A stretch of DNA of 64,000 nucleotides from Streptomyces sp. NP160 (GTDB lineage: Bacteria > Actinomycetota > Actinomycetes > Actinomycetales > Quadrisphaeraceae): contig NZ_VDMJ01000024.1 of assembly GCF_006335115.1 (NCBI RefSeq), positions 120,852 to 184,851 of the forward strand. The letters run 5' to 3'. Numbering within the stretch: position 1 is the stretch's first letter; each line of letters starts with the position of its first letter. Made by a program: the position numbers and the translations under genes. The notes beneath the pieces were generated by a model, which did not search any database, was not told the origin of the DNA, and worked only from the letters and a program-made list of their open reading frames with translations. This document shows, in pieces, positions 5,015-64,000 of this stretch.

Positions 5015-7756
5015 GTGGAGACCGCCGAGATCCGCCGGCGCTGGCTCGACTTCTTCGAGGCGCGCGGCCACACGGTCGTGCCGAGCGCCTCGCTGATCAG
5101 CCCCGACCCGACGCTGCTGTTCACGGTGGCCGGGATGGTGCCCTTCATCCCCTACCTCACGGGCCAGCAGACGCCGCCCTTCCCGCGCGCCACCAGCGTG
5201 CAGAAGTGCGTGCGCACCCTCGACATCGACGAGGTCGGCAAGACCACGCGCCACGGCACGTTCTTCCAGATGAACGGCAACTTCTCCTTCGGGGACTACT
5301 TCAAGGAGGGGGCGATCTCCTACGCGTGGGAGCTCGTCACCACCCCGGTGGACCAGGGCGGCTACGGCTTCGACCCCGACAAGATCTGGGCCACGGTCTA
5401 CACCGACGACGACGAGGCGCACGGCCTCTGGCGCCGCGTCGCCGGGCTGCCGGAGGAGCGCGTCCAGCGCCTGGGCATGGAGGACAACTACTGGTCCACC
5501 GGGCAGCCGGGCCCCGCGGGACCGTGCTCGGAGATCTACGTCGACCGCGGCCCGGCCTACGGCCCGGACGGCGGCCCGGCCAACGACCCGGCCGGTGACC
5601 GTTACCTGGAGATCTGGAACCTCGTCTTCATGCAGTTCCAGCGCGGGGAGGGCCAGGGCAAGGACTTCCCGATCCTCCACGAGCTGCCCAAGAAGAACAT
5701 CGACACCGGCATGGGCCTGGAGCGCGCCGCGCTGCTGCTGCAGGGCGTCGACAACATGTACGAGATCGACCAGGTCGCGCCCGTGCTGCGGCACGCGGCC
5801 CAGCTGGCGGGCGTCCGCTACGGCGCCGACCGCGACGCCGACGTGCGCCTGCGCGTCGTGGCCGACCACGTGCGCGCCTCCCTGATGCTCATCGGCGACG
5901 GCGTCACCCCGGGCAACGAGGGCGGCGGCTACGTGCTGCGCCGCCTGGTGCGCCGCGCGGTCCGCGCGATGCGCCTGCTCGGCGTGGACGCCCCGACGCT
6001 GCCGGAGCTGCTGCCGGTCTCCCTGGAGGCCATGGCCCCTGCCTACCCGGAGCTGCGCGAGGGCTTCGGGCGGATCAGCGCGGTGGCCTACGCCGAGGAG
6101 GAGGCCTTCCGGCGCACGCTCGTCTCGGGCACCACCATCCTCGACACCGCGGTGGCGGCGGCCAAGAAGGCCTCCGCCGCCGGCGGCAGCGCCCCGGTGC
6201 TCTCGGGGGAGCGCGCCTTCGAGCTGCACGACACCTTCGGCTTCCCCATCGACCTCACCCTCGAGATGGCGGCCGAGCAGGGCGTCTCGGTGGACGCCGA
6301 CGGGTTCCGGCGCCTCATGACCGAGCAGCGCACCCGCGCCCGCGAGGACGCCCGCGCGAAGCGCGCCGGGCGCACCGACACGGCCGGCTACCGCCAGGTG
6401 GCCGACGAGCTCGGCCGCGACGTCGACTTCCTCGGGTACGAGGTCCTCTCGGCGGAGGGCCGCGTGGTGGGGCTGCTGCGCGACGGCGCGAGCGTCCCCG
6501 TGGCGCTGGCCGGCGACGACGTCGAGCTGGTCCTCGACAGGACCCCCTTCTACGCGGAGAGCGGCGGCCAGCTGGCCGACCACGGGCGCCTGACGGTGAA
6601 CGGCCCCGCGGGCGTGCGCGCCGTCGTCGACGTGCGCGACGTCCAGCGGCCCATCCCGGGGTTGAACGTCCACCACGCGACCGTGGTGTCGGGCGAGGTC
6701 GCCGTCGGCGACCCGGTGGAGGCCGTGGTCGACGCGGGACGCCGCCTCGCGATCGCTCGCGCCCACACCGCCACCCACCTCGTGCACCAGGGCCTGCGCG
6801 ACTCCCTCGGCCCGGACGGGACCCGGCAGGCCGGGTCGGAGAACGCCCCCGGCCGCCTGCGCTTCGACTACACCGCCCTCGCCGCGCCGTCACCGGCCCA
6901 GTTGGCGGACGTCGAGGCCGAGGTGAACACCTTCCTCGCCGACGACCTGCCGGTGACCACCACCGTCACCGACCCCGACTCCGCGCGCCGCGCCGGGGCG
7001 CTGGCCTTCTTCGGCGACAAGTACGGCGACCGCGTCCGCATGGTCGGCATCGGCGAGTGGTCGAAGGAGCTGTGCGGCGGCACGCACGTGGAGCGCACCG
7101 GGCAGCTGGGCGTGGTCGCGCTGCTCGGGGAGCAGTCCATCGGGTCGGGCACCCGCCGCGTCGAGGCGCTCGTCGGCCCCGACGCGCACGCGCACCTGGC
7201 CCGGGAGTCCGCCCTGGTGAGCCAGCTCACCGGGCTGCTCAAGGTGCGCTCCGAGGAGCTGCCCGACCGCATCTCCGCGCTGCTCGACCAGCTCAAGGAG
7301 GCCGACCGCACCATCGCCGCGGCCCGCGCCAAGGAGGTGCTGGCGGGGGCCGGTGCGCTCGCCGCGGGCGCCGAGGTGCTCACCGGTGCTGGTGGCAGCA
7401 CCGCGGACGGCATCCGTCTGGTCGCCACGAGCGCCGGCGAGGTGGCCTCGGCCGACGACCTGCGCACCCTGGCCCTCGACGTGCGCGGCCGCCTCGGCGA
7501 GTCCGCCGCCGTGGTCGCCGTGGGCGGCGTGGCCAAGGGCCGACCCGTCGTCGTCATCGCCACCAGCCCCGCGGCCCGCGCCGCCGGCCTCAAGGCCGGG
7601 TCCCTGGTCCGCGTGGCCGCCACCGCCCTCGGCGGTGGCGGTGGCGGCAAGGACGACGTCGCCCAGGGCGGCGGCACGGACGCGGCGGCGCTGCCCGCCG
7701 CGCTCGACGCCGTCCGCGCCTCCGTGGCGTCGACCGCGGGCGCCGCGGGGGCCTGA
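5015..7756 (+). CDS. alaS: Alanine--tRNA ligase
   Basis: 913-residue class II aminoacyl-tRNA synthetase that charges tRNA-Ala and edits mischarged Ser/Gly. Catalytic core motifs lie in the first 250 residues ([32 protein letters not shown]-type segment). The editing site metal ligands are intact: His584 and His588 (HTATH), Cys687 and His691 (CGGTH). The C-Ala dimerisation/tRNA domain occupies about 730-913, with a Gly-rich GGGGGGKDD patch typical of this region. It is slightly longer than E. coli AlaS (876). The GTG start has AGGAGG at 5001-5006. Confidence 0.97.
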
Positions 7757-51420: not shown

Positions 51421-52097
51421 GCGGCCGGGTGAGCGACGACGACGGCCGCGTCCTCTCGGTGAACGTGGGCCGGGAGCGGCCGATCGCCGCCAAGGGCGGG
51501 ACGACGGGCATCGACAAGCGCCCCGTCGAAGGCCCGGTGGCCGTGAGCGCACCGGGGCCGAAGAGGGCCGGGCGCAGCGGTGCCAGCGGCCTGGCCGGCG
51601 ACCACATCAGCGACACCGCCCACCACGGCGGTGACGACCAGGCCGTCTACGCCTACGCCCGCGAGGACCTCGACGCCTGGGCGCGCGAGCTGGGCCGGGA
51701 CCTGCCCGGCGGGACGTTCGGGGAGAACCTCACCACGTCCGGCGTGGACGTGAGCGGTGCGGTCATCGGGGAGGTCTGGGAGGTCGGCACGGCGCTGCTG
51801 CAGGTCAGCTGCCCGCGCGTCCCGTGCGTCACCTTCGCGGTGTGGCTGGGGGAGCAGCGCTGGGTGCCGCGCTTCAGCGAGGCGCGCACGCCCGGGGCCT
51901 ACCTGCGGGTGCTGCGCGACGGGGAGGTCACCGCCGGCGACGCGGTGCGGGTGGTGTCGCGCCCCGCCCACGGCGTGGACGTGCGGACGGTTTTCGCGGC
52001 GACGACGACGAGCCCCGACCTCCTGCCGCTGCTGCGCGACGTGCCCGAGCTGCCCGCCGAGGACCGGGCGCAGCTGCTGCGCCGGCTGGACGGCTGA
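51417..52097 (+). CDS. MOSC domain protein (YiiM-like)
   Basis: 226 residues. MOSC fold as found at the C-terminus of molybdenum cofactor sulphurases and in YiiM; conserved HHGGDDQAVYAYAREDL, GTFGENLTT, IGEVWEVG and the Cys of CPRVPCVTF. Probably handles sulphur or N-hydroxylated substrates with Mo cofactor. GTG 51417 overlaps the preceding stop; GTG 51429 is an alternative. Followed 5 bases later by a DinB-like gene. Confidence 0.85.
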   Translation: MSGRVSDDDGRVLSVNVGRERPIAAKGGTTGIDKRPVEGPVAVSAPGPKRAGRSGASGLAGDHISDTAHHGGDDQAVYAYAREDLDAWARELGRDLPGGTFGENLTTSGVDVSGAVIGEVWEVGTALLQVSCPRVPCVTFAVWLGEQRWVPRFSEARTPGAYLRVLRDGEVTAGDAVRVVSRPAHGVDVRTVFAATTTSPDLLPLLRDVPELPAEDRAQLLRRLDG

Positions 52098-52102
52098 GCC
52101 TC

Positions 52103-52615
52103 GTGGAGGACACCCGCACCGACCCGCCGGTGGCCGCCGGGGAGGCTGCCACGCTGACCGGCTTCCTCGACTTCCTCCGCGAGACGGTCGCGCTCAAGAC
52201 CGACGGCCTGACCACCGCCCAGCTCCACCAGGGGCACCCGCCGTCAGCGATGACGCTCGGCGGGATGCTCAAGCACCTGGCGTTCGTGGAGGACTACTGG
52301 GCCGGCCACGTGCTGCTCGGCCGGGACCCCGGCCCGCCCTGGGACGCGGCACCGTGGGACGACGACCCCGACTGGGACTGGCACTCGGCGGCCTCGGACG
52401 ACGCCGCCGAGCTGCGGCACCTGTGGCGCACGGCCGTGGAGGGGTCCCGGGCCGACCTGCCCCTGGACGACCTCGACCGCCTCAGCGCGCTGGAGCGCCG
52501 GGGCCAGCGCGTCTCGGTGCGCTACGTGCTGGTGCACCTCGTGGAGGAGTACGCCCGCCACGCCGGGCACGCCGACCTGCTGCGGGAGGCCCTCGACGGC
52601 ACCACCGGTGAGTGA
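52103..52615 (+). CDS. DinB superfamily protein (DUF664)
   Basis: 170-residue four-helix-bundle protein. Metal-ligand type histidines are in MLKHLAFVEDYW and in HLVEEYARHAGHADLLREAL, the DUF664 hallmark. Some members are thiol transferases or nucleases; the function here is unknown. It forms a likely three-gene unit with the PPOX and MOSC genes. The GTG at 52103 follows the MOSC stop by 5 bases. Confidence 0.85.
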   Translation: MEDTRTDPPVAAGEAATLTGFLDFLRETVALKTDGLTTAQLHQGHPPSAMTLGGMLKHLAFVEDYWAGHVLLGRDPGPPWDAAPWDDDPDWDWHSAASDDAAELRHLWRTAVEGSRADLPLDDLDRLSALERRGQRVSVRYVLVHLVEEYARHAGHADLLREALDGTTGE

Positions 52616-52635
52616 GCCGCCAGGTCGGGGAGGAG

Positions 52636-53076
52636 CTAGTCGAGCCACCAGGTGGCGAGCGGGCTGAGCACCACGCAGCCGGCGAGCATCACCGCGGCCA
52701 GCACCGCGACGGCGGTGGCCGGCGCGACCTCGCGCGGCGAGCGGTGGTCGTGGACGGACTGCAGCACGTCGGCACCCGCCACCAGCAGCGCCACGAAGCC
52801 GGCCAGCGGCGCGGTGGCGATCGCGAGGTACCCCAGCGCCTGGATGAGGGCCGACGGGGGGTCGGGCAGGTCCTCGGGGTCGTACGCGCCGCCGCCGACC
52901 TGGTCGAGGGGGACGTGCTGCAGGCCGTTGACGAGGTAGCCGTGCCCGACGGTGGCGGCGAACAGCGCCGCGCAGCCGACCACGGCCCCGGCGAGCAGCA
53001 GCAGCTGGCGGGGGCGCAGCGGGCCCAGCGGGGCCTCGACGAGGTCAGCGCTGACCGCGTCGTGGTGGACGCTCAT
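52636..53076 (-). CDS. Small membrane protein of unknown function
   Basis: 146 residues with three hydrophobic segments (about 26-48, 75-102, 118-142) separated by short loops rich in Asp/Pro. Not recognised. ATG 53076. Convergent with the DUF664 gene and divergent from the DUF2199 gene. Confidence 0.65.
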   Translation of the reverse strand: MSVHHDAVSADLVEAPLGPLRPRQLLLLAGAVVGCAALFAATVGHGYLVNGLQHVPLDQVGGGAYDPEDLPDPPSALIQALGYLAIATAPLAGFVALLVAGADVLQSVHDHRSPREVAPATAVAVLAAVMLAGCVVLSPLATWWLD

Positions 53077-53187
53077 GTCCGGATGGTGAACCGCCGGTGA
53101 CGTGCGGCGCAAGCACGACGCGCGACGACCACCCCGGTGCGGCCGCCCTGGTCGGGCCGGGGGGAGCCGTCCCGCTACCGTTCGCCC

Positions 53188-54339
53188 ATGATCAGCGGGG
53201 ACGGCGGCGGCGACGACGACCTCAGCCCTGACCTGTGGTCTCCGGAGTCGCTCGAGCAGTACCGCGCTCGCGCACAGGAGCTGTCCCGGGTCCTGGCCGA
53301 GCACGCGGCGCTCGTCGAGCAGCGCGCGGGGCGCCAGCGCGAGCTCGAGGACTACGTCGTGTCGGCCGAGCGGCTGCAAGGCGCCGTCAACGCCTTCGCG
53401 GAAGCCGAGTTCGCCTGGTGCGGCTCCTTCCCCGTCCGCACCAGCGAGGCGGACGAGGACGGCGACGAGGACGGCGACGGCGGGGTCTGGCCGCTGCCGG
53501 ACCCCTCCCTCGCCGAGGCACCCGTCATCAGCGTGCTCGGGCGCTGGGACTACGTGGTGACCGACGCCGACGAGCTGGTCGCCCACGGACGTGACAGCTA
53601 CCGCGCTGCCTGGCCGGAGGACGACGACGAGGACGCCGCGCTGCGCGTCCAGACGGTCCTCGACGCGGTGCGCGAGACCCTCCACGAGGCGCCGCTGCCG
53701 CGGCTCGACGACGCGCCCGGTCTGCAGCCGTCGGCGTCCGTCGTCCAGCTGGTCCAGCACGCGGGCACGTCCGAGGAGGAGCTGACCGAGGACCCGTTCG
53801 GCCTCGTCTCCCACGTCGGCGCTGACGGGCAGCACGACCACGGTCCGGGCGCGTGCGGCTGCGGGCGCGAGCTCGACCCGGGCGACCGGCACTCCAGGTT
53901 CTCGTGGCCCGACGCGTTGTTCGCGCTGGTGGAGCGGGGCGAGGAGGTCCCCGGTCTGTGGATGAGCGGCGAGGACGTCGACAGCTCCGACATGGTGGCC
54001 TCGCCCGACCTCGGCGCCTTCGTCCGCGTCCTCCTGCCCGTGGAGCTCGACGACGGCGGCTCGCTCACCTACGGCACGTGGCTGCAGGTCCACCCGCACG
54101 ACCAGGCCCACGCGCACACGGTCTGGTCGCTGCCCGAGTACCAGCACCTCGTGCTGGAGGGGAAGCTCGCCAACGACGTCCCGCCCGGCGGCGTCCTCGG
54201 GGCTCACGCCCGCGCCGTGGTGACCGACCCCGACCAGCTGCCGCGCGTCGTCGACTCGACGGACGGCGTGCTCAACCGGGTGCTCCTCGAGACGTGGGGC
54301 GCTCACCTGCACGCCGGCGCGCTGGGCCTGGCCGACTAG
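53188..54339 (+). CDS. DUF2199 domain-containing protein
   Basis: 383 residues. The first part (about 1-230) is acidic, with a coiled-coil-like stretch (about 20-70) and no known domain. The C-terminal region from about 222 matches DUF2199: CGCGRELDPGDRHSRFSWPDAL, then WMSGEDVDSSDMVASP and FVRVLLPVELDDGGSLTYGTWLQV. Function unknown; members often appear near toxin-immunity genes. ATG at 53188 with TACCGT ending 6 bases upstream suggests leaderless translation. Its TAG stop shares CTAG with the stop of the convergent MarR gene. Confidence 0.75.
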   Translation: MISGDGGGDDDLSPDLWSPESLEQYRARAQELSRVLAEHAALVEQRAGRQRELEDYVVSAERLQGAVNAFAEAEFAWCGSFPVRTSEADEDGDEDGDGGVWPLPDPSLAEAPVISVLGRWDYVVTDADELVAHGRDSYRAAWPEDDDEDAALRVQTVLDAVRETLHEAPLPRLDDAPGLQPSASVVQLVQHAGTSEEELTEDPFGLVSHVGADGQHDHGPGACGCGRELDPGDRHSRFSWPDALFALVERGEEVPGLWMSGEDVDSSDMVASPDLGAFVRVLLPVELDDGGSLTYGTWLQVHPHDQAHAHTVWSLPEYQHLVLEGKLANDVPPGGVLGAHARAVVTDPDQLPRVVDSTDGVLNRVLLETWGAHLHAGALGLAD

Positions 54340-54908
54340 CAGTCGGCCCCGGGGCCGGGCATCACGCCCGTCCGCTGGGCGATCTCCACGAGAGCTCGCA
54401 GGTGCTCCGGTTCGAGCGGCGCGAGGACGTGAGACCTCACGGCGTCGACGTGGCCGGGAGCCGTGGCGACGACGACGTCCCAGCCGGCCTCCGTCAGCGC
54501 GGCGACGGTGAAGCGGCCGTCGGCGGGGTCGGGTGAGCGGCGCACGAGGCCCCGGTCCTCGAGCTTCTTCACCACGTTGGACAGCCGCGACAGCGACCCG
54601 CTGGCCAGGCGCGCCAGCGAGCTCATCCGGGCGCTGCGCCCGGGCTGCATGGACAGCGAGCTGAGCACCATGTACTCGAACAGGCTCAGCCCGGAGTCGC
54701 GCTGCAGCTGCGCGTCGAGCGGGCCGGGCAGCAGCGAGGCCAGGCCGACGACGGCCTTCCACGCCTCCTGCTGCTCCTCCGTGAGCCAGCCGCCCGCTGG
54801 CGCTGCCGGCGCGGTGACCGTGCTGGAGGGGGTCCGACGTCGTCCTGCGGCGGGGGAGGTCGCGGAGGCGTCGCTGCAGGCGTCCTCGCCGCAGGGGTCG
54901 CCGTCCAC
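54336..54908 (-). CDS. MarR family transcription regulator
   Basis: 190 residues: a disordered N-terminal tail of about 45 residues and a MarR winged helix-turn-helix (about 45-175; LFEYMVLSSLSMQPG, SSLARLASGSLSRLSNVVKKLEDRGLV, then wing SPDPADGRFTVAALTEAG). It is divergent from an FMN-dependent oxidoreductase gene with two palindromes in between, so it most likely represses that gene in response to quinones or electrophiles. The GTG at 54908 is 6 bases after TACCGT on its strand (leaderless). Confidence 0.88.
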   Translation of the reverse strand: MDGDPCGEDACSDASATSPAAGRRRTPSSTVTAPAAPAGGWLTEEQQEAWKAVVGLASLLPGPLDAQLQRDSGLSLFEYMVLSSLSMQPGRSARMSSLARLASGSLSRLSNVVKKLEDRGLVRRSPDPADGRFTVAALTEAGWDVVVATAPGHVDAVRSHVLAPLEPEHLRALVEIAQRTGVMPGPGADC

Positions 54909-54954
54909 ACCCCGACGGTAGTGCGCACCACCCCGGCGCGTCGCCGTCCGGACG

Positions 54955-55004
54955 GATGACTCCAAGCGTGAAGTCATCTGCTACCTTCACTTCACACGTG
55001 AAGT
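54955..55004. promoter_or_regulatory. Two MarR-type operator palindromes and oxidoreductase promoter
   Basis: Perfect palindrome ACTTCAC-AC-GTGAAGT at 54989-55004 and an imperfect one at 54955-54978 (GATGACT ... AGTCATC with internal CGTGA). They share the half-site GTGAAGTCA (54968-54976 and 54998-55006). A TACCTT hexamer at 54982-54987 between them is a good -10 for the downstream gene, so bound repressor would block it. Confidence 0.65.
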
Positions 55005-55028
55005 CACCGATCCGCTGAGGAGACCACC

Positions 55029-55670
55029 ATGAGCCTGTTCCGCCTGGACGCCAGCATCCGCGTCGACGGGTCCGCCAGCCGCGAGCTCGCCGACGCCGTG
55101 GAGGCCGAGTGGCAGCTGGCCCACCCCGGCGACGCCGTGGTGCGCCGCCACGTCGGCACCGAGCCGATCCCCTCCACCACCTGGGGCGAGGCCGTCGCGG
55201 GGTCGATGACCCCCGAGGACGGGCGCACGCCGGAGCAGCGCGGCGCGCTGGCCCTGGCCTCCGAGCTGGTGGACGAGCTCACCGGCGCGGACGCCGTCCT
55301 GCTGGCCGTGCCGCTCTACAACTACGGCGTCTCGCAGCACCTCAAGGCGTGGGTGGACCTCGTCATCGCCGGCAGCACGCCCGGCTCGCGCCTCCTCGAG
55401 GGCACCCCGACCGTGCTGGCCACCGTCCGCGGCGGCAACTACAGCGCCGGCACGCCGCGCGAGGGCTGGGACCACTCCACCGGCTACCTGCGGCGGATCC
55501 TCGCCGACGTGTGGGGCGCCGACCTCACCGTCGTCGAGCGCGACTTCACGCTGGTCGGCGTCAACCCTGCGCTCGACGCCTTCACCGAGCAGGCGAAGGC
55601 GCTCCACACCGAGGCGCTGTCCGTCGCCCGCGAGGCCGGTCGCGCGCTGGGCGTGGTCCCCGTCGCCTGA
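55029..55670 (+). CDS. FMN-dependent NADH:quinone oxidoreductase / azoreductase family
   Basis: 213-residue flavodoxin-fold enzyme. The FMN phosphate-binding region near Ser14-Ser17, the hallmark PLYNYGVSQHLKAWVDLV and the RGGNYSAGTPREGWDHSTGYLR block match AzoR-type two-electron quinone/azo reductases. Preceded by AGGAG (55017-55021) and ATG. Divergent MarR gene and shared operators suggest induction by quinone-like compounds. Confidence 0.85.
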   Translation: MSLFRLDASIRVDGSASRELADAVEAEWQLAHPGDAVVRRHVGTEPIPSTTWGEAVAGSMTPEDGRTPEQRGALALASELVDELTGADAVLLAVPLYNYGVSQHLKAWVDLVIAGSTPGSRLLEGTPTVLATVRGGNYSAGTPREGWDHSTGYLRRILADVWGADLTVVERDFTLVGVNPALDAFTEQAKALHTEALSVAREAGRALGVVPVA

Positions 55671-55685
55671 CCGGGCCCCGCCGGA

Positions 55686-56564
55686 TCAGCCGCCGCTCGG
55701 CTGCGCCGCGTCCTCCCACGCGGTGCAGCCGAGCCGGTTGACCAGCCAGCTGCCGTTCGACGACTGGACCGCCGTCGCGCGCCACGCCCCCGACGTGAAG
55801 CTGCGCTCCTGCCACTCCCGCTGGGCGGGCCCGGACCCCGGGTCCTGCTCGCCCACCCAGCCGTCGGCGGGCACGCCCGCGGGGATGACGGTCGGGTCCG
55901 CGGCCTGGTCCCCGCGGGGCGTCTCGAGCCACCGGACCAGCGCGTCACCAGCCGATGGCTCTCCCTCGAAGCCGCTCACCGGGTCCGCGACGAAGCCGAC
56001 GTCGCACGGCCCGCTCCCGCCCGTCGGCGGCGCGAAGGGCCCCGTGCCGTCGACCTGCGCCTGCGACAGGACGGGCACCGGGGCGGTGCCGTCTGCGACC
56101 GACCGCGAGCAGCCCGCCTGCGTCACCAGCCACTCGCCGTTGGAGGACTGCCGGGTCAGCACCTCCCAGTCGCCCGACGTGAACGTGCGCTCCGCACCGG
56201 ACTCCCCTCCCGCGGCCACCCAGCCGTCGACCGGTGCTCCCGGCAGCACGCCGAGGTCGCCGGTCCGCTCGTCGTAGGCGGGGCCCGTGAGCCAGACCGC
56301 CAGCGCGTCGCCCGCGGACGGTGCACCGCTGGAGGTGCCGGCCATGTCGGCGATGAACGCCATGTCGCACGGACCGCTGCCGCCGTCCGTCCCGGGCGCG
56401 AAGGGACCGCTGCCCTCGACCTCCTGCTGCGACAGGGTCGGGACCGGGACGGCGGCCACCGGCGCCGTCGCGCCGGGCGGTGACGAGCCGCACCCTGCGA
56501 GCAGGGCCGCCGCACCGACGGTGGTCAGTCCACCCCACCTGTGCCGCGACCAGGGACGAGTCAT
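55686..56564 (-). CDS. Lipoprotein with two tandem repeats of an unknown domain
   Basis: 292 residues. Lipoprotein signal with lipobox LLAGC (Cys25). The mature part consists of two homologous units (about 41-153 and 162-283). Each has LSQxxVxGxGPFAP, GGSGPCD, PSAGDALxxWL, VxDGWV, FTSGxW and SSNGxWLV, and each holds one cysteine pair (66/152 and 187/280). Domain not recognised; probably a binding or cell-wall-associated module. The ATG at 56564 is directly preceded by an in-frame GTG. Divergent from a phosphotransferase gene. Confidence 0.75.
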   Translation of the reverse strand: MTRPWSRHRWGGLTTVGAAALLAGCGSSPPGATAPVAAVPVPTLSQQEVEGSGPFAPGTDGGSGPCDMAFIADMAGTSSGAPSAGDALAVWLTGPAYDERTGDLGVLPGAPVDGWVAAGGESGAERTFTSGDWEVLTRQSSNGEWLVTQAGCSRSVADGTAPVPVLSQAQVDGTGPFAPPTGGSGPCDVGFVADPVSGFEGEPSAGDALVRWLETPRGDQAADPTVIPAGVPADGWVGEQDPGSGPAQREWQERSFTSGAWRATAVQSSNGSWLVNRLGCTAWEDAAQPSGG

Positions 56565-56639
56565 CACGTGCCCAGGACGCGGCGCAGCGCGAAGGTGTTG
56601 CACCCCTGGACGCCGTGCAGGGTGTTGACACCGGTGCCG

Positions 56640-57704
56640 ATGATGGGCCGCGTGGGCCTCGACGACCTCGTCAGCGACCGCGCGGAGCTGCGCCACAACC
56701 CCCTCAACGAGGTGACCGCCTCGGTGGAGCGCGTCGCCCTGGCCGACGGGCGCACCCTCGTGCGCAAGCAGCTGCGCGCGCCGGCCGCAGGGTCGCCGTC
56801 GTCCTCCGGGCCGTGGGCCGCCTCGGACGACCCCCGGCACTGGAACTCCTGGCGGCGCGAGGCCGACGTCCACCGCGACCACGCGCTGCGCAGCAGCCTG
56901 CACGGCACCGGGCTCGACCTGCCGGCGTGCCAGGTGGAGGAGGTCGACGGGGGAGCGGTGCTGTGGATGGAAGACGTCGAGGGTGTCGCCGGGGAGCACT
57001 TCGACCTCGCCGACCACGCCGCGCTGGCGGCGGGCCTGGGGCGGTGGCAGGCGCAGGGACCGCTGGAGGCGCCCTGGACGTCACGGGCCTTCCTGCGGGC
57101 GTACTCCGGCAGCAGGCGCGTGCCCTGGGAGCTCGTCGACGACGACGACGCCTGGCGGCAGCCGCCCGTCCGCGACACCTGGCCGTCGTCCCTGCGTGCG
57201 GGGTGGGGGCGGCTGCTGGCGGCACGCGAGCAGCTGCTGCGCACGGAGGAGCAGCTGCCGCGCACGCGTTGCCACCTGGACGTGTGGGTGGCCAACGAGG
57301 TGCGCCGCCCGAGCGGTGACGTGGTGCTCCTGGACTGGGCGTTCGCCGGGGACGGCGCGGTGGGGGAGGACGTCGGCAACCACGTCCCCGACGCCGTCTT
57401 CGACCTCTTCTGGCCGGCCGAGCGCTTCGGGGAGCTGGAGGAGGCGTGCGTGACCTCCTACCTGGCGGGACTGCGGGAGGGCGGGTGGAGCGGCGGCGCG
57501 GACGAGGTCCGGCTCGGGGTCTTCGCGTCGTGCGTCAAGTACGCGTGGCTGCTGCCCCTGCTGCTCGACCGCGCGGGCGCCGAGCAGCACGCCGCGTACC
57601 ACCGGCCCGCAGACGCCCACCACCTCTACGCGCAGCGCGGTCTGGCGCTGTCGCACCTCGTGCGCTGGTGCGACGAGGCCCTGGCCCTCGCCGCTCGTCG
57701 CTGA
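56640..57704 (+). CDS. Aminoglycoside phosphotransferase-like kinase family protein
   Basis: 354 residues of the APH/choline kinase fold. The Brenner catalytic motif HxDxxxxN is present (HLDVWVAN, about residues 215-222), followed by the metal-binding VVLLDWAFAG. The N-lobe Lys is probably in GRTLVRKQLRA. Substrate unknown; such genes are common and need not confer resistance. The start is uncertain: ATG 56640, ATG 56643 or GTG 56652; none has a good RBS. Confidence 0.75.
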   Translation: MMGRVGLDDLVSDRAELRHNPLNEVTASVERVALADGRTLVRKQLRAPAAGSPSSSGPWAASDDPRHWNSWRREADVHRDHALRSSLHGTGLDLPACQVEEVDGGAVLWMEDVEGVAGEHFDLADHAALAAGLGRWQAQGPLEAPWTSRAFLRAYSGSRRVPWELVDDDDAWRQPPVRDTWPSSLRAGWGRLLAAREQLLRTEEQLPRTRCHLDVWVANEVRRPSGDVVLLDWAFAGDGAVGEDVGNHVPDAVFDLFWPAERFGELEEACVTSYLAGLREGGWSGGADEVRLGVFASCVKYAWLLPLLLDRAGAEQHAAYHRPADAHHLYAQRGLALSHLVRWCDEALALAARR

Positions 57705-57745
57705 CCCCCGCTGCCCCTGGCGGTCGAGCGCCCGCGCGCCCAGAT

Positions 57746-57811
57746 GGCCCCATGGGTGCGCAGGTGGCCCATGAACGATGTCGATGGGGCCATCTGCGCA
57801 CCCATGGGGCC
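57746..57811. repeat. Long imperfect inverted repeat (66 bp)
   Basis: Outer arms are a perfect 17-bp inverted repeat (57746-57762 with 57795-57811). After a 2-base mismatch comes an 8-bp inner stem with one bulged G (57765-57772 with 57784-57792) and an 11-base loop. It lies 42 bases after the kinase stop and before a decayed gene. It contains two CCCATGGG-type cores and little resemblance to a plain GC terminator. It could be a terminator, a REP/MITE-like element or an operator. Confidence 0.8.
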
Positions 57812-57875
57812 GACCAGGCGGTGGACCAGCACACGCGCATCGACGGGGCCAGCGGGGGGGCGCCACGATCGTGCG

Positions 57876-58354
57876 GTGACCTGGCAGGAGGAGCTCGCAG
57901 CCCACGCCCTCGTGGCTGCCCGTCAGGAGCCGGCCATCGCCGAGGTGGTGGTGGCCGGCTCGCTCGCGGACGGCGGAGCGGACCCTTCGACCCCGTCCGG
58001 TGGGTGGCGCAGTTCGGGAGGCCGTGGGCGCTCACGTCGACCGGCGCCTGGGACGGGCGCGTGCTGAGGGTGGTCTACGACGACGGGCGGCGTCTCGATG
58101 TCGTCCTCACCGGTGGCGGGACGGGCAGCGGTGCTGTGGAGGGCACCGAGCTGATGGAGTTCCGGCAGGCCGCGGCGCTCGCGGTGGTGAAGCTCGCGCG
58201 CAACGACCTGCTCATCGGGATGCACCTCGCGCTCGGCCTGGTGCAGCGGTGCCTCGTGCAGGCGATGGTGCTGCGCGACCGGCAGCTGGGGACCGCGAGC
58301 CACCGCGTCGGAGGTCCGTTCAACGAGGTCGTCGAGCGGCAGGCCGGCTGCTGA
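57876..58354 (+). pseudogene. Degraded nucleotidyltransferase (aminoglycoside adenylyltransferase-like)
   Basis: The first frame (GTG 57876) gives WQEELAAHALVAARQEPAIAEVVVAGSLADGGAD, the typical start of nucleotidyltransferase-fold proteins. Similarity then jumps to another frame from about 57985 (DPVRWVAQFGRPWALTSTG... RVVYDDGRRLDVVLTG... LARNDLLIGMHLALGLVQRCLV), ending at 58354 soon after GGPFNEVVERQAG. The catalytic DLD segment and the C-terminus are absent, so a deletion plus frameshift is likely. CACGAT 7 bases before the GTG suggests it once had a leaderless promoter. Confidence 0.7.
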
Positions 58355-58362
58355 TCGCCTGG

Positions 58363-58794
58363 TCAGGCGTCGGGCACCCAGGAGTGGTGGACCGCCTCCA
58401 CGTTGATCCCGTCGAGGTCGGCGACGAAGGCGCCGTAGTAGCCCGCGTGGTACTCGGGCCACACACCCGGCTCGCGCAGGGAGCTCCCGCCGGCGGCGAG
58501 CGCCGCCTCGTAGAAGGCGTCGACGGCCGCGCGGTCGGTGGCGGTGAAGGCGACGTGGGTGTCGGCGTCGTAGTGCGGCTGCTCCCCGGGATCGCTCTGG
58601 ACCAGCCAGAAGAAGGGCTTGCGGCCCGCTCCGAAGGCGTGCATCGCCTTCTGGTCCGCTCCAGGGGTCGCCGGGACGCGCAGGAGCGTCGTGATGCCCA
58701 GCGGCGCGAGCGCCGCCTCGTAGAAGGCGGCGGCGGCCGCCAGGTCTGACACGGGGACGTTGACGTGGTCGATGAGCGAGCCGGAGAGGTCCAT
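58363..58794 (-). CDS. VOC (glyoxalase/bleomycin-resistance fold) family protein
   Basis: 143 residues with two beta-alpha-beta-beta-beta units. First metal-site His in LIDHVNVPVSDLAAAAAFYE, later HVAFTATDRAAVDAFYEAALAAGG, and a terminal Glu in DLDGINVEAVHH. Likely an isomerase, lyase or dioxygenase-like protein of unknown substrate. ATG 58794. It appears intact although its neighbours on both sides are decayed. Confidence 0.85.
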   Translation of the reverse strand: MDLSGSLIDHVNVPVSDLAAAAAFYEAALAPLGITTLLRVPATPGADQKAMHAFGAGRKPFFWLVQSDPGEQPHYDADTHVAFTATDRAAVDAFYEAALAAGGSSLREPGVWPEYHAGYYGAFVADLDGINVEAVHHSWVPDA

Positions 58795-58868
58795 CCGCCG
58801 AGCGTCGCGGCCACCTCGGAGCAGTGGCAAGGGGGGCGCGGCCGGTCGCCGGCTCGTGCCGGTGGGTG

Positions 58869-59666
58869 TCACCGCGGCACCGGGAAGACCGGTGCGGCGG
58901 CCTCCACCGGCACGGCGTGGGTGACGCACGTCCCACCCGTGCGTTCGTCGAGCTGGTGCAGGAGCAGCGAGGCCGGCTCGTCGAGGTACCCCATGCGCCC
59001 GGGGGTCGTCAGGTCGAGCGCGCTCTGCCGCCACGTGCTCGGCGCGGTCACCGCGACCGCACCCGCGAAGACCGCCGTGGTCGGCCGGTGCACGTGACCG
59101 GCCAGCACCCGCACCACCTGGGGGTGTTAGGCGACGACGACGGCGAGCGCGCCAGCGTCCTCGAGGCCCATCCCGTCGAGGAACGGGATGCCGACCGGCG
59201 CCGGCGGGTGGTGGAGGGCGAGCAGCGCCGGCACGTCCGGGTGGGCCGCCAGCTCGGCGTCGAGCCACTCCAGCTGCTCCGCGCCCAGCCGACCGGTGCC
59301 CCGACCGCGGACCGCGGAGTCCAGCACGAGCAGCCGGGCCCCCGGCAGGTCGACTCCGTAGTGCGTCACCGCGCCACCCGCCAGGTGCGGCGTCCCGCCG
59401 AACGCGACGACGAGCGCCTCGCCGTCGTCGTGGTTCCCCGCTGCCAGCAGGACGGGCGCGCGCATCGACCGGGCGGCGTCGTCGAGCACCTCGCGCAGCA
59501 CGGCGTACTCCTCGGGTCGGCCGTGCTCGACGAGGTCCCCGGTGATGACCACCGCGTCGACGTCGAGCGCAGCAGCCCGCCCGAGCGCGGTGTGCAGCGC
59601 GCGTGCGGGGCCGGCCGCGAGCGCGCCGGCGGGCAGGTGCGGGTCGCTGAGGTGGGCCAGCAGCAC
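58869..59666 (-). pseudogene. Metallophosphoesterase (CpdA-like) interrupted by an in-frame TAA
   Basis: 266 codons encode a calcineurin-like phosphoesterase: LLAHLSDPHLPAG (motif I), VVITGDLVEHGRPEEY (II), AAGNHDD (III), LALHHPPAP (IV) and, beyond the break, [10 protein letters not shown] (V). A TAA at 59127-59129 lies in the same frame between ALAVVVA and HPQVVRVL, so a single nonsense change separates motif V from the rest. TAA is very rare in this genome. The GTG at 59666 is 6 bases after TACGGT (leaderless). It is a pseudogene, or the base is an assembly error. Confidence 0.8.
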
Positions 59667-59711
59667 GCGCTGACCGTAAGGGCGCGGCCCGGCCGCGGCA
59701 GGATCGGACCC

Positions 59712-59864
59712 GTGGTCGTGCTGGTGGACCTCGACGGGACGCTGGTCGACAGCGGCGCTGCCTTCTCCGCCTGGGCGCACCGGTTCGTCCTCGGCCACGG
59801 GGGTGACGACGACGTCCCGCGGCTGGTCGACCGTTCGCGCGGTGCGGACGCGAAAACGCGTTGA
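59712..59864 (+). pseudogene. N-terminal fragment of a HAD hydrolase
   Basis: 50 codons from GTG 59712: VVVLVDLDGTLVDSGAAFSAWAHRFVL..., a clear HAD motif I with the nucleophile Asp, then similarity stops and the frame ends at 59864. HAD hydrolases are normally above 200 residues. A CAGGAT hexamer 7 bases upstream of the start may be its promoter. It diverges from the broken phosphoesterase gene. Confidence 0.75.
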
Positions 59865-59959
59865 GGGTGCTGATCACCAGCGGCAGGCTGGAGCGCGAGC
59901 GGTCGCCGGGAGCACCGGACGGCTGGCTCGTCCCCCTCGCGCGCGGAAGGAGCTGGCGC

Positions 59960-60226
59960 ATGCCCGAGCAGCGTCGTCCGGTGGCCGTGACCGCCCCAGC
60001 CGCGGTAGGGCGCTGCGCCCTCCCGGCCTGCGTGGTGTGCGCCGCGCAGGTCGCGGGGCGGCGTCCGCTGACGGTGGCCGAGTGGGTGGAGCGGCGCCTG
60101 CGCCCGGCGGTGCGACGTGCGCGCGAGCGCCAGCGGGACCGAGCGGTGAGCGAGCGCGCCAGTCAGGACCCGGCGACGAGGCGCCCGTGGCCGTACTCCT
60201 CGTGGTGGGACGAGGGCTGGGGCTGA
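59960..60226 (+). CDS. Small hypothetical protein with Cys cluster
   Basis: 88 residues; GGAAGGAG (59945-59952) 7 bases before ATG 59960 is one of the best RBS matches in the region. The product has CALPACVVC (C-X4-C-X2-C), a strongly basic helical middle (VERRLRPAVRRARERQRDR) and a Trp-rich end (RPWPYSSWWDEGWG). Codon bias is typical. The open frame extends upstream to a TTG at 59861 that overlaps the HAD fragment stop. Not recognised; possibly a nucleic-acid-binding or regulatory peptide. Confidence 0.55.
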   Translation: MPEQRRPVAVTAPAAVGRCALPACVVCAAQVAGRRPLTVAEWVERRLRPAVRRARERQRDRAVSERASQDPATRRPWPYSSWWDEGWG

Positions 60227-60247
60227 CACCCGCAGCCGGACGGCGGC

Positions 60248-60406
60248 TCAGCCGCTCGGGTCGTCGACGTGGACCGCGCCGAGGTGGGCGTCGTCGAGGC
60301 GCACGCAGTGCTCGGGGTCCGGCACGCAGTGCAGGTCCAGGTCGACGATGTCGTCTCCGTCGTCTCCGTCGTCTCCGTCGTCCCCGGCAGCTGCCCGCGG
60401 GGTCAC
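60248..60406 (-). CDS. Possible small acidic protein
   Basis: 52 residues if started at GTG 60406: TPRAAAG, four GDD units, then IVDLDLHCVPDPEHCVRLDDAHLGAVHVDDPSG. The end looks protein-like and has good third-position bias; the Asp-rich part is a 9-bp tandem repeat. No RBS. The remaining gap to the STAS gene (60407-60628) shows nothing clear. Confidence 0.3.
   Translation of the reverse strand: MTPRAAAGDDGDDGDDGDDIVDLDLHCVPDPEHCVRLDDAHLGAVHVDDPSG
60351..60386. repeat. 9-bp tandem repeat, four units
   Basis: TCGTCTCCG three times followed by TCGTCCCCG (one substitution). It encodes GDD units on the minus strand or Val-Val-Ser on the plus strand. Prone to length change. Confidence 0.85.
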
Positions 60407-60628
60407 CCGCGCCCGCCCCGGGCGTCCTGGTGCCGGGGCCCGTCGACGCCCCCGTGCTCGGCCACGTCCCGATCCTGGCGCAGCCGGCGGGTGGGCTGCC
60501 GCGGCACTCCGGTCGGGCTCGACGGGCGAGATCAGCGCGGGTGGTAGATCCTCGGCGGAGCGCCGGCCCCCGCCGGCTCCGGCAGGGCCCTCGCCCGGCC
60601 TCCGCTGCGACTCCCGGAACGAGGCCAC

Positions 60629-61012
60629 GTGCGCCGCCCGCTCGACGCCGACCTGACCCGCGACCAGGACGTGGAGGTCCTCCACCTGGTCGGAGACCTC
60701 GACCTCCAGGCAGCACCGGAGCTGCGCGGGTGGTCGTCCAGGCTCCTGGCGCAGGCCCACGGGGGCCCTGCACCGGCCGCCGCGGTCGTCGTCGACCTCA
60801 CCGAGGTGCCCTTCGTGGACTCCACGGGCGTGGGTGCGCTGCTGTCGGTCCTGCGCGACGTCCGCGCCCGCGGGGGCGACCTGGTGCTCGCAGGACCCAA
60901 CCACGAGCTGCAGCACCTGCTCGCGTCGCTCGGTCTGCCCGCCGTGCTGCAGGTCTTCGACACCCGGGAGCAGGCGCTGGAGCACGTCCGCCAGCTGGAC
61001 GCCCCCGAGTGA
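60629..61012 (+). CDS. STAS domain anti-sigma factor antagonist
   Basis: 127-residue single STAS domain of the SpoIIAA/RsbV type. The phosphorylatable Ser65 lies in FVDSTGVGALL, preceded by AVVVDLTEV. In partner switching the unphosphorylated form captures an anti-sigma kinase and frees the sigma factor. The GTG at 60629 has GGAACGAGG upstream. Its stop overlaps the start of a PP2C phosphatase (GTGA), the enzyme class that dephosphorylates such proteins. No anti-sigma kinase or sigma gene is in the window. Confidence 0.9.
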   Translation: MRRPLDADLTRDQDVEVLHLVGDLDLQAAPELRGWSSRLLAQAHGGPAPAAAVVVDLTEVPFVDSTGVGALLSVLRDVRARGGDLVLAGPNHELQHLLASLGLPAVLQVFDTREQALEHVRQLDAPE

Positions 61013-63414
61013 GCGCCGACGGCGCCGCCTCCTCGGGCGACCCGCAGCCCGACCCGCTCGACGCGGCGGCCCTGGCCCTCGACCTGGACGGCGGGGAACG
61101 GCTCGTGCTGCCGCGCGGGGTCGCGCAGGTCCGCCCCGACGCCCCGGCGGCGGTGCTCGTGGTCGACCTCGCCGCCCGGCAGGTCCTGTACGCCAACGAG
61201 GTCGCCGGGCAGCTCGCTCCCGGTCTGCACCTGCCCGTGCCCGTCGAGGACTGGGCGGCCGCGGCGGACCTGCGCGACCTCGACGGCGACCCGCTCGACG
61301 AGACCGCGCACCCGCTCTCCCGGATCGCACGCTTCGAGCCGGTCGCCGGGCAGGGGGTCTCCGCCGCCCGCCGCTCCGACATGGGGCGCAGCCGCGAACC
61401 GCTGTGGGTGGTGGCCCTCCCGCTCGACGACGCCCCCGACCTGCAGGGACGAGCCCTGGTGGTGTTCCTCCCCGTGCGGCAGCGCGAGGAGATGCAGCAG
61501 CGCGCCGCCGAGGCGCACGGGCGCTCGTCGTCGTCCTCCGAGCTCGTGGCGGCGCGGACCGGCGCCGTCTCCGTGAGGGAGGCGGCGGTGCTCGCCACCG
61601 GCCTGTCCTTCACCGTGGCCGACGCGCACGAGCCCGACCTGCCCCTGGTGTGGGTCAACCCCGCGTTCACGGCGGTGACCGGGTACACCTTCGACCAGGC
61701 GGTGGGCCGCAACTGCCGCTTCCTGCAGGGGACGGGCACCGACCCGGACGCCACCCTGCGGATGCGCGAGGCCCTCGCCACCGGGCGCTCCATCACGCAG
61801 GTGCTGCTGAACTACCGCGCCGACGGGACGGCGTTCTGGAACCAGGTGGCCATGAGCCCCGTCGTCGACGCCGACGGCCGGGTCACGCACTACGTGGGGA
61901 TCCAGACCGACGTCTCCGGCCGGATCGCCGCCGACGCCGAGCGCGACCGCGCCCTGGCCGCCGAGCAGGCAGCCCGCGCTGAGGCCGAGCTGGCCAACTC
62001 CCGGCTGGAGCTGCTCGCGGAGGTGACGAGGCAGCTGTCGGAGGTCACCGACGCGCAGGCCGCCGTCGACCGGCTGGCGCGACTGGTGGTCCCGGCGCTC
62101 GCGGACTTCGCGATGGTCGCCGTGGTCGGCGACGACAGCGCCGTGGCGACGACGCAGACCACCGAGGACGACGGCGGCGGTCCGCCCGCCGCGCGCCGGC
62201 GGCACGGCCTTCGCGACGTCGCCTGGTGGCACCACGACGACGCTCGCCGCGAGCTCGTGCGGACCATCGCCGAGCGCCGCCTGGCGGAGCTGGGCGACGG
62301 TGGGCGGCAGCTGCTGCAGACGCTGCTCGGACCCGACGGCCTCACGGTGGCCGTGCCGGACACCGCCCCCCAGGGCACCACGGTGGCCGAGGCGCTCGCC
62401 GAGCTCATGGCACCCGGCGAGGCGCGCGACGCCCTGCTCGAGCTGGCGCCCTCCTCGATGGCCACCTGGTCGCTGCGCAGCGGCGGTCGCACCCTGGGGC
62501 TGCTGACGGTGGGGACCGACCCCGGGCGGGCTCCGCTGAGCCCGCGCGACGTCGACCTGGGTGCGGACATCGCCGCGCGCGCGGGGCTGGCGCTGGACCG
62601 CTCCCGCCTGTTCCGCCAGCAGCGCGACCTCGCCGAGGGCCTGCAGCGCTCGCTGCTGACGCTGTCGCCGGGGGCCGTGCCCGACCACGTCACGGTCGCC
62701 GTGCGCTACGTCGCCGCCGCCGAGGCCGCGCGCGTGGGCGGTGACTTCTACGACGTGTTCACCCAGCCGTCCGGTGCTGCGGTCGCGGTCATCGGTGACG
62801 TCATGGGCCACGACACCGACGCCGCCGCCTCGATGGCGCAGCTGCGCTCGACCGTGCGCACGCTGGGGATGCTCACCGACGACGGTCCCGCCGAGGTGCT
62901 GCGCCGCGCGGACGCGCTGATGCGCGCCTCGGGGATGGACACCACGGCCACGGCCGCGGTGGTCAGGCTCCCCGAGCCCCAGGCGCCCGCCCCCGAGGCG
63001 GCTCACGCGGCGGGCCAGGAGGCGGTCGACCCTTCGGAGGTCGACGCGGCGGCGGTCCTGGTGGAGTGGTCCAACGCCGGTCACCCCCCGCCGCTGGTGC
63101 TCGACGACGACGGCAGCGTCAGGCTGCTCACCGCGCCCGCCACGGACCTGCTGCTCGGGGTGGACCCCGGCACCACCCGGCGGCAGACGCAGCACCCGAT
63201 GCGCGTGGGCGCCACGCTGCTGCTCTACACCGACGGGCTCGTGGAGCGGCGCGACCAGCCCCTGCAGCAGGGCATCGCCCGGCTGCAGGAGGTGGTGGCG
63301 CGCGTGGCGCCGCAGGCCGCCGACCACCACCAGCTGCTCGACCTCGTGCTCGCGGAGATGCTCCCCGAGGTGGCCACGGACGACGTCGCCGTCGTGGCGC
63401 TCTGCCTCACCTGA
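61009..63414 (+). CDS. LOV-GAF-PP2C (SpoIIE) photoreceptor phosphatase
   Basis: 801 residues. N-terminal PAS-like domain (about 40-155), Ser-rich linker, LOV domain (about 195-305) with the flavin-adduct motif GRNCRFLQG (Cys236) plus NYRADGTAFWNQ and THYVGIQTDVS, a coiled coil (about 306-345), GAF domain (about 345-535) and PP2C/SpoIIE phosphatase (about 545-801) with VGGDFYD, GDVMGHD, NAGHPPPL, YTDGLVER and DDVAVVAL. Blue light should form a Cys236-FMN adduct and change phosphatase activity toward the coupled STAS protein. The GTG overlaps the STAS stop. All metal-binding Asp residues of the phosphatase are present. Confidence 0.92.
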   Translation: MSADGAASSGDPQPDPLDAAALALDLDGGERLVLPRGVAQVRPDAPAAVLVVDLAARQVLYANEVAGQLAPGLHLPVPVEDWAAAADLRDLDGDPLDETAHPLSRIARFEPVAGQGVSAARRSDMGRSREPLWVVALPLDDAPDLQGRALVVFLPVRQREEMQQRAAEAHGRSSSSSELVAARTGAVSVREAAVLATGLSFTVADAHEPDLPLVWVNPAFTAVTGYTFDQAVGRNCRFLQGTGTDPDATLRMREALATGRSITQVLLNYRADGTAFWNQVAMSPVVDADGRVTHYVGIQTDVSGRIAADAERDRALAAEQAARAEAELANSRLELLAEVTRQLSEVTDAQAAVDRLARLVVPALADFAMVAVVGDDSAVATTQTTEDDGGGPPAARRRHGLRDVAWWHHDDARRELVRTIAERRLAELGDGGRQLLQTLLGPDGLTVAVPDTAPQGTTVAEALAELMAPGEARDALLELAPSSMATWSLRSGGRTLGLLTVGTDPGRAPLSPRDVDLGADIAARAGLALDRSRLFRQQRDLAEGLQRSLLTLSPGAVPDHVTVAVRYVAAAEAARVGGDFYDVFTQPSGAAVAVIGDVMGHDTDAAASMAQLRSTVRTLGMLTDDGPAEVLRRADALMRASGMDTTATAAVVRLPEPQAPAPEAAHAAGQEAVDPSEVDAAAVLVEWSNAGHPPPLVLDDDGSVRLLTAPATDLLLGVDPGTTRRQTQHPMRVGATLLLYTDGLVERRDQPLQQGIARLQEVVARVAPQAADHHQLLDLVLAEMLPEVATDDVAVVALCLT

Positions 63415-63450
63415 CCGGGACGCCGGTCGAGGTCGTCGACCTCCCCCTCG

Positions 63451-63507
63451 CGGGTGAGCGCTCCAGGGGCGTCTTCGTCCGGTCCTCGCCCCTGGACTGC
63501 TCACCCG
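63451..63507. terminator. Long bidirectional hairpin between convergent phosphatase genes
   Basis: 21-base arms (63451-63471 with 63487-63507) pair at 19 of 21 positions around a 15-nt loop. Another small palindrome (GAGGTCGTCGACCTC) precedes it. It separates the convergent LOV phosphatase and PP2C genes. Confidence 0.7.
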
Positions 63508-63574
63508 GGAGAGCCGTCCCACCCGCAGCAGGAGGTCGGTGCGGTGACCGGGCTGGCCCCGCCGTCACCGAGGG

Positions 63575-64000
63575 TCAGAGGTGCTGGCCGTACCCGTCGG
63601 CGTCAGCGCCCCCGGCGGCAGCGCCCACCAGGCGCGGCGGGAAGGGGAGCACCTGGTCGTCCTGGACGACGGCGACGACGACGCAGGTGACGTTGTCCGT
63701 CGCTCCTGCCCGCAGCGCCAGCTCCACGAGGCGCAGGGAGCACACCCACGCTGACGGCTCCTCGTCCATGACCTGCTGCATCGTGTCCACCGAGAGCACC
63801 CCGGACAGGCCGTCGGAGCACAGCAGCCAGCGGTCGCCGACGTCCGCGGCGTGGCGGCTCAGCACCGGGGTGCTGTCGGATCCGGCGGTGCCGAGGCAGG
63901 CGGTGATGATGTTCCCCATGGGGTGCCCCTCGGCCTCCTCGGCCGTCAGGTGGCCTGCGTCGACGAGCTGCTGCACGTAGGTGTCGTCGCGGGTGACCTG
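63575..64000 (-). CDS. PP2C-type Ser/Thr protein phosphatase, partial
   Basis: The C-terminal 141 codons of a Stp/PstP-type phosphatase; the 5' end is beyond the right edge of the window (the frame is open to base 64000). Motifs: VTRDDTYVQQLVDAGHLTAEEAEGHPM, NIITACLG, DRWLLCSDGLSGVLS and the metal Asp in GATDNVTCVVV. In actinobacteria such enzymes usually reverse Ser/Thr kinase (Pkn) phosphorylation. It is convergent with the LOV phosphatase and is a different PP2C subfamily. Confidence 0.9.
   Translation of the reverse strand, partial: QVTRDDTYVQQLVDAGHLTAEEAEGHPMGNIITACLGTAGSDSTPVLSRHAADVGDRWLLCSDGLSGVLSVDTMQQVMDEEPSAWVCSLRLVELALRAGATDNVTCVVVAVVQDDQVLPFPPRLVGAAAGGADADGYGQHL

Follow-up and report, generated by a model that had tools for sequence, protein, structure and literature searches.

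The window considered here, i.e., the whole 64,000-nucleotide stretch analysed of contig NZ_VDMJ01000024.1 (deposited under Streptomyces sp. NP160; GC content 74.7%), harbors near its end a gene for a small STAS-domain protein followed by a gene for a large phosphatase combining a LOV domain with a SpoIIE-type PP2C domain. Both genes start with GTG and encode 127 and 801 amino acids, respectively. They overlap by four nucleotides, GTGA, the GTG start of the phosphatase lying within the STAS stop, which bears out the placement of the pair at 60629 to 63414 and of its junction in a first-pass annotation made from the sequence alone. The STAS GTG start and the GTGA junction are both conserved in the four genes of the window type (hereafter copy A) that were compared. 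Both genes are under purifying selection: across six pairs each, the ratio of nonsynonymous to synonymous substitution rates (dN/dS) is 0.16-0.20 for the phosphatase and 0.18-0.51 for STAS, the latter being laxer in pairs with Quadrisphaera granulorum (0.40-0.51) than in the others (0.18-0.20). The host is most likely a Quadrisphaera species, since the proteins of the named relatives (Q. granulorum, Quadrisphaera sp. INWT6 and an Actinomycetales metagenome-assembled genome) equal or contain those of the window's genus genomes. A block about 100 nt 5' of the STAS start (60500-60560) is partly alike in four genes and may be a promoter; Rfam gave no match for it.

Domain architecture of the phosphatase

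The phosphatase displays, in this order, a PAS domain, a LOV domain, a 28-residue helical linker, a GAF-like region and a SpoIIE/PP2C domain (Table 1). It had been described as a LOV-GAF-PP2C protein; the LOV and PP2C identities are secure, the GAF domain corresponds to a match below the cut-off, and the N-terminal PAS domain had been overlooked. LOV photoreceptors can be recognized by the motifs GXNCRFLQ, NYRXDGXXFWN and GIQXD, and this signature is found in the phosphatase, with GRNCRFLQG starting at residue 233 (which makes Cys236 its cysteine, as first annotated) and NYRADGTAFWNQ at residue 268. The same stretch matches Pfam PAS_9 (residues 209-303, E 1.1e-19), solved LOV-type chains (down to E 2.8e-33) and the NCBIfam families YtvA_fam and BluLightHisKinLov, both below their whole-protein cut-offs, as is expected because one domain is shared with those families.

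Regarding the output, the SpoIIE domain (residues 588-799) is found with E 2.6e-31 and 109.5 bits against a cut-off of 25, and the PP2C motifs GGDFYD, GDVMGH, YTDGLVE and TDDVAV are all present, so that both the domain score and the metal-site acidic residues are those of a SpoIIE/RsbU-type PP2C phosphatase. The GAF match (Pfam E 0.0064, 17.5 bits) lies under the cut-off of 22.4; a weak match can likewise be found in paralogue P0004, with none listed for P0003. The N-terminal PAS domain was not detected in the Pfam scan of the window phosphatase. A PAS fold of residues 37-158 is indicated by a model of residues 37-164 (pLDDT 71.9, pTM 0.70), whose structure matches are, by title, mostly PAS, LOV or PYP entries, and a weak PAS_8 match occurs in four of six relatives.

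Table 1. Features of the STAS-phosphatase pair in window coordinates
Feature	Position	Strand	Basis
STAS-domain protein, RsbV/SpoIIAA-like (anti-anti-sigma type), 127 aa	60629..61012	+	Pfam STAS, TIGR00377, sister-genome orthologues
Ser65 codon of STAS, predicted phosphorylation site	60821..60823	+	D-S-T-G, aligned with DSAG of TM1442
GTGA overlap, STAS stop / phosphatase start	61009..61012	+	kept in 4/4 copy-A genes
PAS-LOV-GAF-PP2C phosphatase, 801 aa	61009..63414	+	
N-terminal PAS domain, residues 37-158	61117..61482	+	
LOV domain, residues 197-303	61597..61917	+	profile and structure-chain matches, photochemical residues
Cys236 codon, predicted flavin-adduct cysteine	61714..61716	+	
Helical linker LOV-GAF, 28 residues (four heptads)	61918..62001	+	7n length in 46/46, helix in low-confidence model
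GAF-like region, residues 332-544	62002..62640	+	sub-cut-off Pfam GAF match
SpoIIE/PP2C phosphatase domain, first helix LQRSLL	62641..63405	+	Pfam SpoIIE, motifs

The STAS protein

The small protein consists of a single STAS domain (Pfam STAS, E 1.1e-20) and scores above the cut-off of the anti-sigma factor antagonist family TIGR00377 ant_ant_sig (64.9 versus 53.45 bits). Its phosphoserine motif DSTG, already reported as intact, begins at residue 64, so that Ser65 is the predicted phospho-acceptor, and aligns with DSAG of TM1442, a solved anti-sigma antagonist. A single STAS domain with a phosphorylatable Ser is what is found in RsbV/SpoIIAA-type proteins, and D-S-[TAS]-G is present in all nine distinct STAS proteins paired with a LOV phosphatase. 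Close orthologues of the window type (73-84% identity) can be found in three of the five other genus genomes, each adjoining a copy-A LOV phosphatase, so that this STAS and the phosphatase co-occur in 4/4 genomes having the former; the next best relative of the window STAS is only 48% identical.

Homologues and their linkage to STAS

In the search for homologues, 43 proteins with LOV, PP2C and a near-full match were kept, six duplicates (same genome under two names) were removed, and nine class-level proteins were added to the remaining 37, giving 46 distinct LOV-PP2C homologues. Selection was by the motifs NCR (for the first 43 also the following Gln) and GGD, which are thus conserved by construction and provide no evidence; 42 related open reading frames (ORFs) without the LOV motif were excluded. 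For the order and the class, 248 and 394 genomes were sampled, respectively, with the best four and best two candidates per genome scored and at most 30 loci returned, so the census is partial. All 13 family genomes match the phosphatase at E 1e-60 or better; despite this, loci L114 and L117 of genome G008 are devoid of the LOV motif.

Beyond the selected cysteine, the LOV Asn pair and the late Gln are each found in 45 of the 46 homologues, and the PP2C motifs GDVxGH, TDGLxE and DDxA in all of them. The N-terminal PAS domain is absent in four. Mean identity to the window protein, calculated by domain for the 13 proteins inside and the 33 outside the genus, amounts to 0.82/0.55 for the N-terminal PAS, 0.80/0.62 for LOV, 0.76/0.54 for the linker, 0.57/0.27 for GAF and 0.69/0.39 for PP2C. 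The PAS-LOV input is thus better conserved than the PP2C output, the N-terminal PAS equalling LOV within the genus.

STAS genes were sought in the flanks with a model of 11 STAS proteins from the own genome (less than 1000 nt of upstream DNA being examined for L102, L110, L112 and L136). A same-strand STAS gene lies immediately upstream of nine of the 46 homologues, all nine in Quadrisphaera, where linkage concerns 9/13 distinct proteins and 6/6 genomes: copies A and B are paired in three genomes, copy A alone in one and a third type in two. At L162, a STAS ORF lies downstream on the opposite strand and is excluded from this count. At two loci (L093:1270-1272 and L104:5770-5772), STAS and phosphatase share a frame, with a stop and about 130 nt before the likely phosphatase start between them, possibly a trace of fusion or split.

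A heptad rule in the LOV-GAF linker

The linker, taken as the stretch between the end of QTDVS and the RLxLLA anchor, has a length of 14, 21, 28, 35, 42, 49 or 63 residues, i.e., a multiple of seven in 46/46 homologues (37/37 and 42/42 in successive sets, of which the 46 are the union). On a tree made without the linker, at least seven length changes are required, and the chance of all of them preserving the rule is about (1/7)^7, near 1e-6, if insertions and deletions are treated as uniform, although real ones are not. A control distance, running across GAF from this anchor to the PP2C helix and measured in 44 of the 46, takes all seven classes modulo 7. The anchor was picked after a 14-residue insert between LOV and GAF had been seen in the paralogue on contig C98 (copy B), and the first linker patterns failed on five class-level proteins and were loosened afterwards. 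The tree set comprised 42 rows, the partial own-genome copies L006, L018, L020, L142, L143 and L146 being left out together with three own proteins; L120, missed by the PP2C pattern in the 42-row set, is included in the 46, as are the three own proteins. In the tree, 25 of 39 inner branches were starred, with a warning that the long branches L174 and L185 meet.

A helix (residues 305-344) spans the linker region in a low-confidence model of the full-length protein. So strict a rule argues for a parallel coiled coil running continuously into GAF and PP2C, whatever the sensor, and, as an evolutionary sign of such coupling, it is a clear one; it independently supports a mechanical connection between the PAS/LOV part and the output. 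Receptors of the LOV and phytochrome classes are known to follow heptad rules (PMC6798134, PMC9587094), e.g., the seven-residue dependence on linker length of the LOV kinase YF1 (PMC6798134). RsbU is reported to be activated via a coiled-coil linker onto its PP2C helices, and PAS- and GAF-bearing phosphatases are predicted to behave alike (PMC12143880).

Genomic context, paralogues and candidate partners

The genome contains 22 SpoIIE, 20 STAS and 42 HATPase_c_2 matches, with histidine kinases of the ordinary kind among the last. Five instances of the LOV core pattern were found (control, 0): in copy A of the window, in copy B on C98, in a third paralogue, C, at C132:227-229 kb, in a 502-residue LOV-PP2C protein without GAF at C132:156.6 kb (L086:6575-8083), and in an EAL-DICT-LOV-GGDEF frame at C121, the start of which is uncertain. 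PP2C thus terminates four of the five LOV proteins, three of the PAS-LOV-GAF-PP2C type and the shorter one.

Copy B (L085:1741-4760, 5037-5615) is a second STAS and PAS-LOV-GAF-PP2C pair, its junction being TGATG in the own genome and GTGA or ATGA in sister genomes. Its STAS gene is divergent to a sigma gene of the extracytoplasmic function (ECF) type (assigned by eye, with a weak SigBFG match) in 3/3 genomes, namely the own genome, G002 and G003. By eye, ECF-type genes can also be found near copy A, divergent to STAS in G003 and downstream of the pair, at a distance of about 1.7 kb, in Q. granulorum; none was seen at 52000-64000 of the window.

Within the window, no anti-sigma kinase or SigB/F-type sigma gene lies beside the pair, which fits the first-pass view that both must be encoded elsewhere. 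Two SigB/F/G-type sigma factors exceed the cut-off of 234.35, at C126:142234 (277.6 bits) and C132:187572 (252.3 bits), both on other contigs. Candidate kinase genes exist as well. The C126 sigma gene lies directly behind a 160-residue RsbW-like ORF with a partial HATPase_c_2 match. About 6.5 kb downstream of the pair (C104:190807) there is a gene whose HATPase_c_2 match exceeds the cut-off; a relative of this ATPase gene was not found in the examined flanks of G002 and G003. Another STAS gene lies about 8.5 kb downstream (C104:192780). Since contig C126 has no STAS match, the window STAS can be guessed to be one candidate partner of its RsbW-like/sigma pair.

Other features surround the pair. 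A second PP2C phosphatase gene, PstP-like by eye, is convergent (63575-64000, reverse strand) and runs off the window end; it is complete in L083. On the other side, a short reverse-strand stretch at 60248-60400 (…DIVDLDLHCVPD…) resembles a 96-residue ORF of genome G002 (L211:5702-5992), which is upstream of the pair there and divergent to the STAS gene. A HAD-like start at 59700-59864 (forward strand), whose frame soon stops, may be a remnant; a longer HAD-like ORF occupies the corresponding place in G002 (L211:4670-5347). Elsewhere, a PP2C phosphatase gene at C13 has a photolyase/cryptochrome-like gene (by eye; L088:3607-5211) at a distance of about 1 kb.

Proposed mechanism and alternatives

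The anatomy supports a phosphatase of the RsbU/RsbP type that senses light and has a STAS protein of its own as partner. Probably, the two genes form an input module for partner switching in which blue light alters PP2C activity via the coiled coil and so sets STAS phosphorylation. The genes would be cotranscribed, and their phosphatase would act as a PAS-LOV-GAF-PP2C dimer. Blue light would generate an adduct between Cys236 and a bound flavin, and the change in LOV would travel along the coiled coil, kept in heptad register, and across the GAF-like domain until it reached the first PP2C helices, altering activity. The phosphatase would then dephosphorylate Ser65 of the STAS protein encoded by the overlapping gene, and the dephosphorylated STAS would bind a target whose gene lies elsewhere, either an RsbW-like kinase or a different one. 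Light may in this way directly set the state of STAS, as first proposed; the analysis leans towards light turning the phosphatase on, the data themselves giving no sign. Overall, the initial observation is confirmed and its interpretation partly supported.

Several points weigh against this reading. The full-length phosphatase model is poor (pLDDT 54.3, pTM 0.35), and no experiment on this protein family was found at the top of the literature result lists. No same-strand upstream STAS gene was seen in the examined flanks of any of the 33 homologues outside the genus or of 4/13 inside it, which shows that a linked STAS is not required by the phosphatase. The paired STAS proteins are not one clade, the B and third types being 35-43% identical to the window type, and crosstalk is possible because of the 20 STAS and 22 SpoIIE matches in the genome. 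Finally, in 7 of the 42 non-LOV relatives the LOV stretch is covered by an ordinary PAS, and those non-LOV linkers that can be measured are also multiples of seven (L116, 56; L170, 14 by pattern; L122, 14 by eye), so that the rule speaks for coiled-coil coupling and not for light.

It can be asked whether LOV works as proposed in a phosphatase that acts mainly on other STAS proteins, the linked one being a decoy, adaptor or feedback element. The 37 unlinked homologues, the many STAS matches and an RsbW-like/SigF-like pair on a contig without a STAS match would fit; the conserved 4-nt overlap and the presence of the phosphatase beside the window-type STAS wherever the latter occurs do not, and this arrangement seems unlikely. 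To much the same degree, it is improbable that the output is no sigma factor and that the target switched by STAS is of another kind, although a review covers STAS-only proteins, some of which have such other outputs (PMC8256260). While no RsbW-type kinase with a SigB/F-type sigma gene was seen adjoining the pair, the genome does contain two over-cut-off SigB/F/G sigmas and an RsbW-like ORF, and the ECF-type genes near copies A and B likewise argue for a sigma output.

PAS flavin domains can sense redox state. The flavin domain could therefore be mainly a redox or oxygen sensor, or a constitutive part of the dimer, with light not being the physiological signal. The N-terminal PAS, as conserved as LOV inside the genus, and the GAF-like part offer additional possible inputs, and the seven phosphatases with a non-LOV PAS in the same position point the same way; however, the residues of LOV photochemistry other than the cysteine are retained in nearly all homologues, which leaves this a rather remote alternative. 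That STAS and phosphatase are chance neighbours, as might occur in a genome rich in both, is disfavoured and highly improbable given STAS adjacency in 6/6 genus genomes and the overlap conserved in copy A.

Going beyond the proposed module itself, it may be speculated, with considerable doubt, that Quadrisphaera built several insulated blue-light channels. The conserved PAS-LOV input would have been duplicated, with linker changes confined to whole heptads, and each copy would have acquired a strongly diverged STAS partner and neighbours of its own, such as the ECF-type sigma gene divergent to copy B. A single genome would then read blue light through partner switches that work in parallel and differ in output, an ECF sigma factor perhaps being among these outputs.

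Comparison with known systems

The first-pass annotation contrasted the pair with YtvA from Bacillus. The difference in architecture holds, but YtvA alone is too narrow a comparison, SpoIIE phosphatases having been named among the typical prokaryotic LOV outputs in 2014 (PMC4844311). As in that class, a LOV sensor is fused to a SpoIIE-type phosphatase; the window protein differs in its N-terminal PAS domain, its GAF-like domain and the STAS gene that overlaps its own. No characterised member of the class and no characterised LOV-PP2C/STAS pair was found at the top of the literature result lists. PAS- and GAF-bearing RsbU-type phosphatases are known as well, namely RsbP, OsaC, Rv1364c and RsbZ (PMC12143880). 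Since both kinds of protein have precedents, the module is not a wholly new kind.

RsbP from B. subtilis likewise combines a PAS-class sensor, a helical linker and a PP2C domain acting on STAS (PMC12143880, PMC3183031). In contrast to RsbP, which works with RsbQ in energy stress, the window phosphatase has an intact LOV and a GAF-like domain. In the YtvA and Lmo0799 pathways, as in the one proposed here, LOV and STAS are combined with an RsbU-type phosphatase. In those systems, a single LOV-STAS protein acts upstream of RsbU, whereas here LOV is fused to the phosphatase, and STAS, encoded by a separate, overlapping gene and not in the same polypeptide, is the expected substrate. The pairing of a PP2C phosphatase with a phospho-Ser STAS partner is that of RsbU/RsbV and SpoIIE/SpoIIAA, unlike which the window pair has no adjoining anti-sigma kinase or SigB/F-type sigma gene.

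With so compact a gene pair, two purified proteins are enough to test whether light controls a PP2C partner switch, and it would show if RsbU-style coiled-coil activation holds in a photoreceptor with a fast, reversible trigger; a light-controlled serine-phosphatase tool is a possible use. With regard to novelty, each part belongs to a known kind and pairs of RsbU/RsbP with STAS are classical, the new points being the genus-bound pairing with STAS and the strict linker.

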